From: Candidatus Nitronereus thalassa | Lineage (GTDB): Bacteria > Nitrospirota > Nitrospiria > Nitrospirales > UBA8639 | DNA: 64,000 nucleotides | Reading direction: 5' to 3' | Assembly: GCF_032191465.1 (NCBI RefSeq) | Contig: NZ_JAQOUE010000001.1 | Coordinates: 682,001 to 746,000, forward strand | In this document: one piece after another, positions 48,630 to 63,257 of the stretch | Layout: each line of letters begins with the position of its first letter | How positions within the stretch are numbered: position 1 is the stretch's first letter | Position numbers and translations under genes: made by a program | The notes under the pieces: model-generated | What the model saw: only the letters and a program-made list of their open reading frames with translations | What the model was told of the DNA's origin: nothing | Databases searched by the model: none

Positions 48630-49101
48630 TAAATCTTACTATCAGCTTACCATCTCTCACTTCCAAGAAAGTAGACGAAACCTGTGTGAACAACAAAAAA
48701 CGCCACAAAGAACATGAGATAATAAGCGCGCTCACCTAACAGCCTGTCGGGAATTTTTCTTTATTCATTTGGTTGAAGAACTCTTTGATATTAAAACTGA
48801 ATAAATGATTACACCTCTTAAATACTGAACAGACTTGTCAGATTTTTTTCCGATTTAAAATTTTTCCCTATGTATTACCCCTCATCTCTCAATCAATAGC
48901 GACATTATAAAAAACTTCGAACAAACAATACGTTCGATAAGCCAAAGCCTTTTTGCCACAACAATAAACCGACTTGGCACAATCATTGCGGAAGCGATGG
49001 TTACCGTAAGTGTTTTGCTGGATTATTTTCTAAAGATTGAAAAGTTTTGCTGAATAGAGTGACAACGACAAAAAAGATTCAGTATAGTGGAGAAACTTCC
49101 T
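48630..49101. other. About 470-bp intergenic region
   Basis: Divergent region between the TPR-like and SleB-like genes. A+T-rich, with no gene visible. It contains the sigma-54-like promoter at 48974. Confidence 0.5.
48974..48990 (+). promoter_or_regulatory. Sigma-54-type -24/-12 promoter
   Basis: TTGGCACAATCATTGCG has the invariant GG (48976-48977) and GC (48988-48989) separated by 10 bp, with TGGCAC and TTGC matching the RpoN consensus. The transcription start would fall near 49001, leaving a leader of about 100 nt before the SleB-like gene. No enhancer-binding regulator gene is close. Confidence 0.65.
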
Positions 49102-49689
49102 ATGAACACTACGATATTAACTTCCCCCCACGTGAGAACACTCATCACTGGCCTGATCGTGGGCACCTTGATTCTTGGTGTTTTTCCTTCGACCACAGCA
49201 CCAGGACTTAAAGCCCAAGGGCTCCTCATGGATTGGAGCCCGCGAACTTCTCTAGCCTCAATGTTGAGAAAAGAAGATTTGCGACAACATTACCCCTCCC
49301 CCGACGACCTCGCCGCATTGACCATTTATCTCGAGGCACGGGGGGAAAGTTTTGCAGGAAAGATGGCTGTCGCGGCTGTTATTCGAAACCGGATGAAAAT
49401 GAAATATCAAAGTGATGGGACGGTAAAAGGAACGGTTTTGAAACGTAAACAATTTCAACCATGGAATCGTCAACAACCTCACCAAGTCCTAGCAAAATTT
49501 AATAAACAGCGAATGAAGGACAGCCTTTTGGCCTGGCGCCTTGTCCAAGATGGGCGGAATATCGTCCATGGGGCTCTCCTGTTTTATAATCCTCGCATTG
49601 CTCGAACCCCTAAATGGGCTAAAGTCGGTCATAAGGTCGCCACGATTGGTGGACATGAATTTTATCTTCCCTCTAGAAATCAGACATAA
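49102..49689 (+). CDS. SleB-type cell wall hydrolase
   Basis: 195 residues from ATG 49102, with GGAG 9 bp upstream. A hydrophobic N-terminal signal (LITGLIVGTLILGVFP) precedes a Hydrolase_2 (SleB/CwlJ) domain. It contains LAALTIYLEARGES (catalytic Glu), GKMAVAAVIRNRM, FQPWN and ALLFYNP. Such enzymes are lytic transglycosylases in spore cortex lysis. In non-sporulating bacteria they act on peptidoglycan. Preceded by a sigma-54-like promoter. Confidence 0.85.
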   Translation: MNTTILTSPHVRTLITGLIVGTLILGVFPSTTAPGLKAQGLLMDWSPRTSLASMLRKEDLRQHYPSPDDLAALTIYLEARGESFAGKMAVAAVIRNRMKMKYQSDGTVKGTVLKRKQFQPWNRQQPHQVLAKFNKQRMKDSLLAWRLVQDGRNIVHGALLFYNPRIARTPKWAKVGHKVATIGGHEFYLPSRNQT

Positions 49690-49750: not shown

Positions 49751-50002
49751 TTAAAACGAAGGCCCACCAAACCGGGGAGGTTCAGAAAACAAGGAACTCA
49801 GGGATTGTCCGAAAGGTGGCTTTAACGGAATAAATGGACGGTTTTTGCAAGAAGGGCATCGACCTTGAACGGAGTGTTGATCATTGGAACCCTTTCCTAA
49901 AATCTTGATGGCAAAAAAGGTGTTTCGAAAAAATCCTTGTGAAGGCATTCCAACAAAACCACAACTTGGACAGACGCACCGTAATTCGTGATTCCACTCC
50001 AT
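49751..50002 (-). CDS. Small zinc-ribbon protein
   Basis: 83 residues with two CPSC motifs (CVCPSCGF and GRCPSCKN), a likely zinc ribbon, followed by a Pro/Phe-rich tail. Unrecognised. Located 89 bp after the sigma factor stop on the same strand. Confidence 0.6.
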   Translation of the reverse strand: MEWNHELRCVCPSCGFVGMPSQGFFRNTFFAIKILGKGSNDQHSVQGRCPSCKNRPFIPLKPPFGQSLSSLFSEPPRFGGPSF

Positions 50003-50091
50003 ATTGACCTTTATTTGCCTATTGAGAAAACGAAGGAGGCGCTAGGCCTCCCAATTTAAGAAAGTTCTTGAAGGAATGGCTTGTTCATGGA

Positions 50092-50937
50092 CTAAGAATG
50101 CTCTTCGCCTTGAATATCTGCTCCCATGGTCAATAATTCTTCACGTAGTCGATTTAAGGCATCTGCATGGACCCGACAGATCCCAGATTCCGTAAGGCCT
50201 TGAGTTTCCCCGATCGCCTTCATCGTCATTCCCGAAAAATAGTATTGTCGAACGATCGCTTGTTGGCGTTGCGGCAGACGAACAATCGCAGCCTGGAGAA
50301 GATCTCCAACTTGACTAGAAATACAGGCCGCGAGTGGATCGAGTTGATCTTTGGCTGGCAGCATATCTTTGAGGGTGCAGGTTTCATCTTCTTCACCCAC
50401 ATTTTCATCAAGACTTAATACCGTTGCTTCTTTCATGAGATTATCCCCCATTTCTTCTGGAGGAATGCCCAACAACTCGGCAATTTCATCCTGGGTGGGT
50501 GGACGCCCCTCCTTACGTACAAATTCCTCCGAAGCTTGTTGGAATTTTTCGATTCGGGCACGGACGGACCTGGGCACCCAATCCATAGACCGAATTTCAT
50601 CAAGCATGGCCCCGCGAATGCGATACTCGGCAAAAGTACGAAATTTAATCTCACGAGTCGGATCAAAACGTGTCATCGCTGACAATAGGCCCATAACTCC
50701 AGCGCTAGTCAGGTCTTCAACATCGAGGGCTGCGGGATTACGAAGTACAAGTTCCGTGGCAATCCTACGAACGATAGGAAGAAAATCACGAACCAATTGG
50801 TCGGCATCTTTTCCGCAGAATGCCGGATCAAAGGTTGGACCCTGTTCTCCAGGAGTTTCCTTTACCGATACAGGAGGGACTGTTCGTTCAGCCCGCTTTC
50901 CTTTGAGTTTGAGGCCACCTACTCGATGTCGATACAT
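50092..50937 (-). CDS. Sigma-28-family (FliA/WhiG-like) RNA polymerase sigma factor
   Basis: 281 residues from ATG 50937, 9 bp after AAGGG. The longer frame to 50994 runs into the terminator hairpin. Region 2 contains VRRIATELVLRNP, VEDLTSAGVMGLLSAMTRFDP and KFRTFAEYRIRGAMLDEIRSMDWVPRSVR, characteristic of FliA. Region 3 has RPPTQDEIAELLGI, and region 4 has LPQRQQAIVRQYYFSGMTMKAIGE and ESGICRVHADAL. It directs flagellar or other late-gene promoters. Its leader carries a c-di-GMP riboswitch and a terminator. Confidence 0.93.
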   Translation of the reverse strand: MYRHRVGGLKLKGKRAERTVPPVSVKETPGEQGPTFDPAFCGKDADQLVRDFLPIVRRIATELVLRNPAALDVEDLTSAGVMGLLSAMTRFDPTREIKFRTFAEYRIRGAMLDEIRSMDWVPRSVRARIEKFQQASEEFVRKEGRPPTQDEIAELLGIPPEEMGDNLMKEATVLSLDENVGEEDETCTLKDMLPAKDQLDPLAACISSQVGDLLQAAIVRLPQRQQAIVRQYYFSGMTMKAIGETQGLTESGICRVHADALNRLREELLTMGADIQGEEHS

Positions 50938-50957
50938 CCTGTAATACCCTTTATAGA

Positions 50958-50994
50958 TAAAAAAAATGCCCACCCCTCGAACGAGGATGGGCAT
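50958..50994 (-). terminator. Intrinsic terminator in the sigma factor leader
   Basis: The stem ATGCCCA...TGGGCAT with inner CCTCG/CGAGG and a short loop (50966-50994) is followed on the minus strand by a run of eight T (50966-50959). It ends 21 bp before the sigma factor start and immediately follows the riboswitch. It is the likely expression platform. Confidence 0.9.
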
Positions 50995-51017
50995 ACTTCA
51001 AATCCAGAATCTGCCGT

Positions 51018-51120
51018 CTCCAGTTCGGTAACCAGACGTACCCTTGGGTGACGTACACCCAAACCCAGGTCTCTTGGCTTTGCGCCCTACCCTCTCGAGC
51101 AGTTTGCCTTTGTCACCTGT
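51018..51120 (-). ncRNA. Cyclic di-GMP-I (GEMM) riboswitch aptamer
   Basis: On the minus strand: GACAAAGGCAAACTGC, then a 6-bp P2 stem CTGCTC-GAGA-GGGTAG with a GNRA tetraloop, the invariant GGCGCAAAGCC, then a P3 arm with TTGGGTG/CACCCAA, and the closing TACGTCTGGTTACCGAACTGG. These match the GEMM-I consensus elements (AGGCAAACC, GACGCAAAGCC, tetraloop receptor, GGUUACCGA). It precedes the terminator at 50958-50994 and the sigma factor gene. Whether ligand binding turns expression on or off needs structure analysis. Confidence 0.93.
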
Positions 51121-60105: not shown

Positions 60106-61347
60106 TTAACTTTTAAGGAGAGGGATTAAATAGGATGTCCAAGAAATAGATTCCAAGTAGGCTGCTTTCACAGTTTCCACTTCCACACCGTGACATAACA
60201 CGGTATCCCAATCGCCACGCTCGTAGGCCAGAACACATTCCAAAGTGCGCCCCAAAACTCCCTCTTGTTTCAACAAGGCCTTTCGAATATCTGTGTCGAG
60301 AGGGAGAATGGAAATAATGTCATTCATCGGTTGATCCAGGAGCCCATCCAGAATTGAAAAAAGCCCAACGGTAAAATAATGATCTACTTCTTGAACATGA
60401 TGAGCCAAGGCCAGCTGCTCACACATCCTTGCGCGGACGATACCGGTTACAAGCAACTCTACGGGTTTGTCTTCGATTCTCGTCAGCATCAGCAAACTGG
60501 CCCACGTCCGAAGCCGATTGGTACCAACCATGGATATGGCCTGATCAAGAGAATCAATGTATTTGGGCATTTCAAAATACGCAGCATTGATGTACCGCAA
60601 TACTTGGGCCCCAAGGGAAAGATCCTTTTGAATCATGCGCTCTAACTGCGAGAGGCCAAGAGTCGGCTCTTGAAGCTTCGTCAAAAGGGCCAGGACCGCC
60701 ATTCGATTAGCCGGCATGGGTTTTGCTGAAATCACCTTTGGCTTACAAAAAAAGTATCCTTGAAAATAGTCAAATCCTAAATCACAACAAAATTCAAATT
60801 CTTCATAGGTTTCAACTTTTTCTGCCAACAATTTCACTGGGTATTCCCGAAGAATCTCCACATGGTCTGAGACAGTTTTCTTGTCGAGCTGCAATACATC
60901 CACCTTGATAATATCCGCCAACTCCACCAGTGGTTTCAACGAGTCGTGATACACAAAATCATCCAACGCAATGCGATACCCCAGCGTTGACAGTCGCCGA
61001 AGAGCTTCCATCAATTCGTGGTCCATGCCCATATTTTCAAGGACTTCCAGGACCACCCGATCTTTTGGAAGAGCCATGCAATAGCCCCCGAGCACAAAAT
61101 CCCTAGTCAAATTTATAAATGCCAAATGGTGATCAACAATAGAATCAAGGCCAATTTCTACAAAGGTATTAAGCATCACCTGAGCTGTGGCCGCATCCCC
61201 ATCCGTAAAGGAGGCGCGATTGACTTCATTGTTTCGAAACAGTAATTCGTAGGCGAACACATCAAGCGACCGCCCATAAATCGGCTGACGCCCGACAAAG
61301 GCCACATGGGCATCCACATCTTTGGGGTGAACGACAATTTCAGTCAT
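60106..61347 (-). CDS. EAL-HDOD signalling protein (YuxH-type)
   Basis: 413 residues. The N-terminal EAL-like domain has YELLFRN in place of EAL, INLTR, VLEVLENM, IALDDF, IIKVDVL, AEKVET and YFQGYFFCKP. Most metal and substrate residues are therefore retained, though the EAL signature itself is altered. The C-terminal HDOD domain (about 200-400) includes RMIQKDLSLGAQVLRYINAAYF. Such proteins hydrolyse or sense c-di-GMP. AGGAG precedes the ATG. Activity is uncertain. Confidence 0.9.
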   Translation of the reverse strand: MTEIVVHPKDVDAHVAFVGRQPIYGRSLDVFAYELLFRNNEVNRASFTDGDAATAQVMLNTFVEIGLDSIVDHHLAFINLTRDFVLGGYCMALPKDRVVLEVLENMGMDHELMEALRRLSTLGYRIALDDFVYHDSLKPLVELADIIKVDVLQLDKKTVSDHVEILREYPVKLLAEKVETYEEFEFCCDLGFDYFQGYFFCKPKVISAKPMPANRMAVLALLTKLQEPTLGLSQLERMIQKDLSLGAQVLRYINAAYFEMPKYIDSLDQAISMVGTNRLRTWASLLMLTRIEDKPVELLVTGIVRARMCEQLALAHHVQEVDHYFTVGLFSILDGLLDQPMNDIISILPLDTDIRKALLKQEGVLGRTLECVLAYERGDWDTVLCHGVEVETVKAAYLESISWTSYLIPLLKS

Positions 61348-61895: not shown

Positions 61896-63257
61896 CTAGG
61901 TGGAACGGCCAGAATAAATATACTCAAAAACCTCTTTAGGAACATGCTGAGGCCGAAGACTATGGACAATGGCGAGTTCTCCCTCATTAGTCAAATCGAC
62001 GACTCTCGCCTCTTTTCGAGGGGTCTGAGGGGAACAAATCATGACACAGGGCTTCGTTCGCTCCTCAGAATTTACCCCGGTGACCAAGCCGACCGAACCA
62101 TTAGTTAATTCAACCAAACTTCCCGGAGGATACACCCCAAGGGCTCGAACCATATAGACAACCACTTCTTCAGACAATTCTGCCTTGCTACTTATGGAAT
62201 TGTCATCCTCTCCACCATCCTGAGCAGTTCCTACGGAAGCGGCTTCCTCATTCAACATCGTCTCAATGGAGTCACTCACCGCCATGAGCTTTTCAACGAT
62301 ATAATGATCATATAGGTACGATAAAGCTTCAGCAGGAGTAAAATTTTTGGAGGGATCAGGTTGATGACATAAATGGTCGTACTCATCGGCCGCCATGATG
62401 ATTTTGGCAAAGAATGAAATGTCATCCCCCTTTAACCCTAAGGGAAATCCAGACCCATCTAACCGTTCATGATGTTGGTAGATGGCTTGGACCGTAGACG
62501 CGGGGATTGAGGGAAATCTTTCGACCGCAGCTTTTCCTAATTCAGATTGCCTCAGCCAGTCTTGCTGTTCGGCTTTCGTCAAACCCGATCGCTTCATCCG
62601 CAGCATTACAGGAAAATTCTGTTTTCCAATATCATGCAGAAGTGCGGCAAGAGCCAAAGCATACAACTCGTCATCGTTAAGGTCATATTCCTTCCCCACC
62701 AACAAGGATACGATACACACATTAAGCGAATGAGCTAAAAATGGATCCTCTGCCTGCGTGGAAGTCAAAATATCAATCATAGCCATACTTGTTTCAGGTT
62801 TACTCAATGAATGGATAAGAGTGGAGACGACTTGATCGGCCGATTTGATTCCAGCAGCATGCCCATCACTGATTCTTTTCAATGCAATTTTGGTTTGAGC
62901 CACTACCTGTTGATATAAATAAGCGGCTTTTTGTAATTCTGCGCCATGGTCCTGACATGCCTGAATTTGACCTATCCGAATCTCTTCCTGTTTCTGCTCC
63001 TCCGCAGCTTGCACCACCTCCCTAGGTACGGATTCAGGACTATCCGGACCATCTTTAACTTCGCTGCCCTCTTCTGGGTCCGACAAGTCAGGATCATAAA
63101 ATATCTTAACTTTGGGAATAGCCTTAAGGGTTTTTATTTCTTTTGCGGAGGTAATTTTAAACTTACTTTTGGCAAATGGATGGTTCCACCAAGAACATTC
63201 TAACTTAATGTATAATCCAATTCGCAGTTCATTGAGAGGCATTGGAATAAAAGGCAT
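61896..63257 (-). CDS. DUF3391/HD-GYP c-di-GMP phosphodiesterase
   Basis: 453 residues. The N-terminal DUF3391 domain (ELRIGLYIKLECSWWNHPF...SKFKITS) is followed by an HD-GYP domain with AHSLNVCIVS, LLHDIGKQ and HHERLDGSGFP; the GYP motif reads GFP. The C-terminal beta-rich end contains YPPGSLVELTNGSVGLVTGVN. HD-GYP proteins hydrolyse c-di-GMP to GMP. It is divergent from another DUF3391 gene at 63872. Confidence 0.92.
   Translation of the reverse strand: MPFIPMPLNELRIGLYIKLECSWWNHPFAKSKFKITSAKEIKTLKAIPKVKIFYDPDLSDPEEGSEVKDGPDSPESVPREVVQAAEEQKQEEIRIGQIQACQDHGAELQKAAYLYQQVVAQTKIALKRISDGHAAGIKSADQVVSTLIHSLSKPETSMAMIDILTSTQAEDPFLAHSLNVCIVSLLVGKEYDLNDDELYALALAALLHDIGKQNFPVMLRMKRSGLTKAEQQDWLRQSELGKAAVERFPSIPASTVQAIYQHHERLDGSGFPLGLKGDDISFFAKIIMAADEYDHLCHQPDPSKNFTPAEALSYLYDHYIVEKLMAVSDSIETMLNEEAASVGTAQDGGEDDNSISSKAELSEEVVVYMVRALGVYPPGSLVELTNGSVGLVTGVNSEERTKPCVMICSPQTPRKEARVVDLTNEGELAIVHSLRPQHVPKEVFEYIYSGRST

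Follow-up and report, generated by a model that had tools for sequence, protein, structure and literature searches.

A c-di-GMP-I riboswitch in front of a probably non-flagellar FliA/WhiG-family sigma factor gene in a family of Nitrospirales

The genome of Candidatus Nitronereus thalassa carries a c-di-GMP-I (GEMM-I) riboswitch immediately ahead of the gene of a FliA/WhiG-family sigma factor, here called sigma2, and the arrangement is conserved across one family of the Nitrospirales. We consider it probable that the riboswitch controls sigma2, a non-flagellar member of its family, by premature termination of transcription, most likely as an OFF switch. The window is the whole stretch of DNA analysed, 64,000 nucleotides (contig NZ_JAQOUE010000001.1, positions 682,001 to 746,000), from a genome of 4.0 Mb in 2 contigs with seven c-di-GMP-I copies. 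The analysis is wholly computational and draws on sequences that are for the most part metagenome assemblies. The features of the window on which the argument turns are as follows.

51024..51118, minus strand: c-di-GMP-I (GEMM-I) aptamer (RF01051 match; orthologous aptamers by Rfam and a covariance model)
51082..51091, minus strand: strand of the aptamer that would enter the antiterminator, 3' side of P2 and GGGCGC core (duplex energies, pre-termination folds, pair counts)
50985..50994, minus strand: 5' arm of the terminator, proposed partner strand of the antiterminator, ATGCCCATCC
50959..50994, minus strand: intrinsic terminator, stem-loop 50994-50966 with 11 pairs and an eight-T tract at 50966-50959
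50092..50937, minus strand: sigma2 gene, FliA/WhiG family, 281 aa, start ATG 50937 (TIGR02479, Pfam, tree)
50167..50193, minus strand: region 4.2 recognition-helix segment TESGICRVH, with G252 and R255 (alignment against flagellar FliA)
50034..50052, minus strand: terminator-like hairpin downstream of the sigma2 gene (consensus scan only)

Results

The aptamer

An Rfam covariance search of the whole window matched RF01051 over its full length on the minus strand at 52.9 bits (E 1.7e-7), well over the gathering score of 35 bits, which bears out the complete GEMM-I aptamer that an earlier, sequence-only reading of this DNA had recognized and had proposed to check in this way. The GNRA-type cap that it had placed on P2 is also there, the loop being GAGA. 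At the positions of Vc2 G20, A47 and C92, which we take to be the ligand-contact bases when that numbering is mapped onto the aptamer, the window copy has G, A and C and is thus fully canonical. In a permissive scan the c-di-GMP-I-GGC model (RF03167, cut-off 59 bits) scored higher than RF01051 for the orthologous aptamers, with 8 above 59 and the rest at 44.7 to 58.4; in the Rfam search of the window, the window aptamer fell below the RF03167 cut-off. The RF03167 consensus has G where all sigma2-leader aptamers show A47, and this class was set aside because position 47 is A. Judged by its sequence, the RNA in front of sigma2 is a genuine c-di-GMP-I aptamer, and the window RNA would be expected to bind c-di-GMP. 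Elsewhere, position 20 is A rather than G in L018/L058, L158, L171, L179, L188, L189, L191, L213, L216 and L224, and C rather than G in the L063 aptamer.

The sigma gene and its surroundings

The sequence-only reading had placed a FliA/WhiG-type gene after the terminator, and the profile search agreed: the window protein matched TIGR02479 (FliA_WhiG) at 205.3 bits against a cut-off of 189.6, and Pfam Sigma70_r2, r3 and r4 are all present. The protein fell below the family cut-offs for flagellar FliA (NF005413, 188.7 versus 201 bits) and WhiG (NF004935, 188.1 versus 343 bits), and in the tree the riboswitch-controlled sigma factors grouped together, separately from flagellar FliA, in a clade supported at 100/100. 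The listed open reading frame begins at ATG 50994, inside the terminator; the true start is almost certainly ATG 50937 (CDS 50937-50092), since it is from this codon on that the N-terminus, MYRHRVGGLKLKG, is conserved among the orthologs. The hairpin downstream of the gene suggests that sigma2 is transcribed alone.

The recognition helix of region 4.2 reads TESG[IV]CR[VI]H (TESGxCRxH) in the sigma2 copies, whereas R and Q occupy the two distinguishing positions in all flagellar-type copies (TESR[IV]CQ[LI]H; SQ in one); the helix of L109 was unreadable. R and Q are also what WhiG and two FliA proteins, that of E. coli and a further one with a known structure, carry there. Since the replaced Q is, by alignment with sigma-70, a main −35 base contact, a changed −35 preference of sigma2 is plausible.

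Right behind the sigma2 gene lies a gene for a small CxxC...CxxC protein (49751-50002, minus strand), with counterparts at L052, L053 and L054; this protein is a possible partner of sigma2. A gene for a SleB-like cell wall hydrolase (49087-49689, plus strand) is convergent to sigma2, an adjacency kept in the relatives examined. The window also encodes the EAL-HDOD protein (60106-61347) and the HD-GYP protein, more exactly HD-GYP-like (61896-63257), that had been noted earlier, both about 10 kb from the riboswitch.

Conservation of the riboswitch-sigma linkage

Two genes in the window's genome exceeded the FliA/WhiG cut-off, a flagellar-type gene at C1:1326767 (269 bits) and sigma2 (206 bits). 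Orthologs of sigma2 were taken from relatives and named assemblies, mostly Nitrospirota. With a covariance model built on 20 family aptamers, most of them from these same orthologs (Rfam's own models recover 18 of the 20), an aptamer was detected upstream of 23 of 24 readable sigma2 orthologs from one Nitrospirales family, in addition to the window. The sequence of L133 ends before the leader and stands outside this count. The exception is L081 (L036), a diverged ortholog with the TESGxCRxH helix, in front of which the model detected no riboswitch; in the tree it still falls inside the sigma2 clade. We also looked for a riboswitch at flagellar fliA loci, and the same model found no aptamer at 55 other, flagellar-type loci, true Nitrospira included. 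In a phylum-wide sample of 246 genomes, hits above 250 bits came from this Nitrospirales family alone. The aptamer-sigma2 arrangement is conserved across that family. The assemblies of L059, L087 and L099, labelled Nitrospinota, have sigma genes that group with Nitrospirota and are probably mislabelled.

Terminator and proposed antiterminator

About 30 bases downstream of the aptamer stand the hairpin, here found to have 11 pairs, and the run of eight T that the sequence-only reading had described. The comparison of leaders at orthologous sigma genes that it had suggested, which gave the aptamer count above, also turned up a terminator-like hairpin in 26 of 27 sigma leaders (weak in L074); the hairpin scan of these 27 found no recognisable terminator in the L060 leader. 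A terminator-type expression platform directly linked to a FliA/WhiG-family sigma gene is supported.

The 5' arm of the terminator is kept in the orthologs as GCGCCCATTCC or GCGTTCATCC, and GCGCCCATTCC and its variants are complementary to the P2 3' side and GGRCGC core of the aptamer. In an alignment of 23 leaders, 97.3% of the cells in the proposed eight-pair helix were standard pairs, compared with at most 66.4% when the partner strands were slid as a control in the same alignment. One pair showed a G-C to A-U double change in 4 sequences, and 0 of 500 shuffles had as many, the four sequences belonging to one clade, so that the change may be a single event. In most leaders the aptamer strand formed a better duplex with the true terminator arm than with mononucleotide-shuffled versions of it. 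As long as the 3' arm has yet to be transcribed, the ligand-free minimum-energy fold was the antiterminator in most orthologs tested, lying below the aptamer-enforced fold by about 4 to 6 kcal/mol in several and by 1 to 2 in others. The antiterminator of the window leader is weaker (7/8 pairs, shuffle p 0.068), and its predicted minimum-energy fold before termination differs from the antiterminator; for these reasons the OFF assignment leans on the family more than on the window copy. In full-length predicted folds aptamer and terminator can coexist, the terminator being clear of the aptamer. The pairing of the terminator's 5' arm with the ligand-binding core, as an antiterminator, points to an OFF switch as the most likely mode of the sigma2 riboswitch.

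The opposite sign, an ON switch in which c-di-GMP binding would block the terminator and high c-di-GMP would raise sigma2 in a sessile programme, has precedents in GEMM-type terminator switches such as Geobacter pilM (PMC9262584), and the apparent non-flagellar regulon (see below) takes in pili and surface proteins. We nevertheless regard it as unlikely, given that the sigma2 terminator is separate from the aptamer and both fit the full-length folds, as in the Cd1 riboswitch of Clostridioides difficile and unlike pilM, and that the only conserved alternative pairing found disrupts the ligand pocket. It is very improbable, in our view, that the aptamer responds to a different cyclic dinucleotide (cGAMP) or that the element is decaying. 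That reading draws on position 20, which is not G in the sigma leaders of G001 (A20, with U at 93) and G013 (C20) and is A in several further leaders of the same family; we take A20 to be the mark of cGAMP-type GEMM-I. Against it, 25 of the 27 sigma leaders are canonical at the ligand-contact positions, G20 included, no sequence in the alignment varies at A47 or C92, and the window copy departs at none of the three. An OFF switch answering to c-di-GMP is the reading retained below.

Sigma-28-type promoters on other c-di-GMP-I leaders

We surveyed 103 leaders, of which 97 were additional c-di-GMP-I leaders of relatives (L229, another sigma2 leader, among them) and six came from the window's genome, and sought a promoter motif in the 170 bases upstream of each. 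A sigma-28-type promoter, AAG-N15/16-YCGATA, was present at 62 of the 103, where fewer than 0.5 would be expected: the form AAG-N15-[CT]CGATA at 52 and the N16 form at 10. Dinucleotide shuffles yielded about 0.2 occurrences of either form. On the reverse complement the counts were 1 and 0, and no other spacer length was seen more than once. Many leaders are orthologous, which leaves fewer than 103 independent cases; a count of distinct motif strings, 58, is a better guide, though still generous. The three genomes of family f2 that have c-di-GMP-I leaders yielded no FliA-family match, and the motif was in 0 of their 5 leaders. Genome-wide, sigma-28-type patterns were not enriched over a reversed-pattern control, and a regulon can therefore not be listed from sequence alone.

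The sampled riboswitch-led targets include FN3 and FG-GAP surface proteins, a Flp-type pilin, response regulators and a BrxC/BrxD-type ATPase. The gene for this ATPase stands behind a c-di-GMP-I aptamer and a sigma-28-type promoter in three genomes (L007, L233 and L240); L007 is at G000:C1:1572671-1572773, minus strand, in the window's genome, and its target matches PF10923 at 112.6 bits. L003 and L004 (G000:C1:275023-275662) are two c-di-GMP-I aptamers about 480 bases apart before a Flp/Tad-type pilus cluster.

Autoregulation of sigma2 from such a promoter was considered and rejected, the motif being found in 0 of 27 of sigma2's own leaders. The SleB/TPR intergenic region was also compared in search of a sigma2 promoter, and nothing clearly conserved emerged.

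The role of sigma2

The sequence-only reading had c-di-GMP setting, by attenuation, the level of a sigma factor that normally turns on motility or late genes. The attenuation part is in keeping with the linkage of aptamer, terminator and sigma gene; the motility part does not fit the separate flagellar fliA at C1:1326767, which makes sigma2 a paralog, or the relative G001, a genome of the same genus (99% completeness) in which sigma2 is present and a genome search found no flagellar FliA, flagellin or FlhA. Because G001 keeps sigma2 without these three, a non-flagellar role is likely, and, together with the separate fliA, this argues that sigma2 is probably not the motility sigma factor. The non-canonical position 20 of the G001 sigma leader coincides with the absence of flagella.

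It remains that sigma2 belongs to the FliA/WhiG family, that Cd1 offers a precedent in C. difficile, and that a related family has, at L214, a GEMM-I leader with a sigma-28-type promoter before a flagellar rod gene. A motility or late-flagellar sigma factor, with a riboswitch that opposes motility at high c-di-GMP like the C. difficile flgB leader, is improbable all the same when set against the genome's own flagellar FliA, the survival of sigma2 in G001, the consistently different recognition helix, and neighbours of which none, as far as seen, is flagellar. Which sigma factor reads the riboswitch-led promoters is a closer matter. Flagellar FliA might transcribe these genes and sigma2 serve a different regulon with an altered −35 element, a possibility that we hold doubtful but to be reckoned with: the −35 helix of sigma2 carries the R-to-G and Q-to-R changes, the flagellin promoters of the group (TCAAG-N15-CCGATA) agree with the motif in the −10 and in much of the −35 element, most genomes with the motif also carry flagellar FliA, and the motif is missing from sigma2's own leaders. 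G001 speaks against it; there sigma2 is the only FliA-family gene, and the motif is on both of its other c-di-GMP-I leaders. This retention without flagellar FliA is the best evidence for sigma2 as the reader, and it comes from two leaders in one genome. We infer that sigma2 probably drives transcription from sigma-28-type promoters, many of which belong to genes that have a c-di-GMP-I leader of their own.

In the related family f3, c-di-GMP-I leaders L214, L217, L227 and L231 stand before a flagellar basal-body rod-type gene.

Discussion

In the mechanism that we propose for the sigma2 leader, the nascent 5' arm of the terminator would, without ligand, pair with the P2 3' strand and GGRCGC core of the aptamer, and the resulting antiterminator would let RNA polymerase read into the sigma2 gene. 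With c-di-GMP bound, the core would be locked in the aptamer, the terminator would form and sigma2 would drop. Low c-di-GMP would thus raise sigma2, which would then act at sigma-28-type promoters of genes for surface FN3/FG-GAP proteins, Flp pili and response regulators.

The nearest known system is Cd1 of C. difficile, which governs the flgB operon and with it sigD (PMC6366702) and works as an OFF switch, its aptamer and terminator existing side by side and an antiterminator acting as competitor (PMC9262584). Both leaders have a GEMM-I aptamer, a separate terminator and a sigma-28-family gene downstream, and an aptamer-competing antiterminator with OFF logic, as in Cd1, is what we propose for sigma2. 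They differ in that sigD is one gene in a long flagellar operon, whereas sigma2 is a stand-alone, probably non-flagellar paralog directly after the riboswitch, and in that the proposed sigma2 antiterminator uses the P2/core strand, unlike Cd1. In Streptomyces and Rubrobacter, RsiG with c-di-GMP holds WhiG, and the predicted regulon of Rubrobacter WhiG is non-flagellar, with type IV pili (PMC8325347). There too c-di-GMP restrains a FliA/WhiG-family sigma factor; however, RsiG is a protein anti-sigma factor acting post-translationally, whereas the sigma2 leader would be an RNA switch acting on transcription. A study of Bdellovibrio maps FliA promoters as TTAAG-N16-CCGATA, nearly identical to the motif described here and serving non-flagellar genes, and places the FliA regulon and a highly expressed c-di-GMP riboswitch RNA, merRNA, in the same attack-phase programme; its table shows no FliA promoter for merRNA, which has no conserved downstream ORF, and the passages considered here mention no riboswitch on fliA (PMC3627812).

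The sequence-only reading had called direct riboswitch control of a sigma factor unusual. In the open-access literature searched, which on riboswitches at sigma genes yielded mainly C. difficile and Bdellovibrio work, no c-di-GMP-I riboswitch immediately upstream of a stand-alone sigma gene came to light; the judgement stands to that extent and is tempered by the Cd1/sigD precedent (PMC6366702).

The sigma-28-type promoters on 62 of the 103 GEMM-I leaders, many of these orthologous, are new and suggest a two-tier c-di-GMP circuit. It is possible, if somewhat short of probable, that the riboswitch sets the level of a FliA-derived sigma2 with changed −35 recognition, and that sigma2 in turn transcribes many riboswitch-led genes; the same c-di-GMP signal would then be sensed twice, in the synthesis of sigma2 and at every one of its targets. 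The known routes from c-di-GMP to FliA/WhiG-family sigma factors are the protein anti-sigma factor RsiG and the operon leader of C. difficile. A stand-alone sigma paralog under direct riboswitch control, with conservation across a bacterial family and a link to a regulon rich in riboswitches, would add a third to these, and would show the duplication and rewiring of a flagellar sigma factor for another lifestyle decision. The largely uncultured relatives of Nitrospira would thereby gain a testable global regulator.
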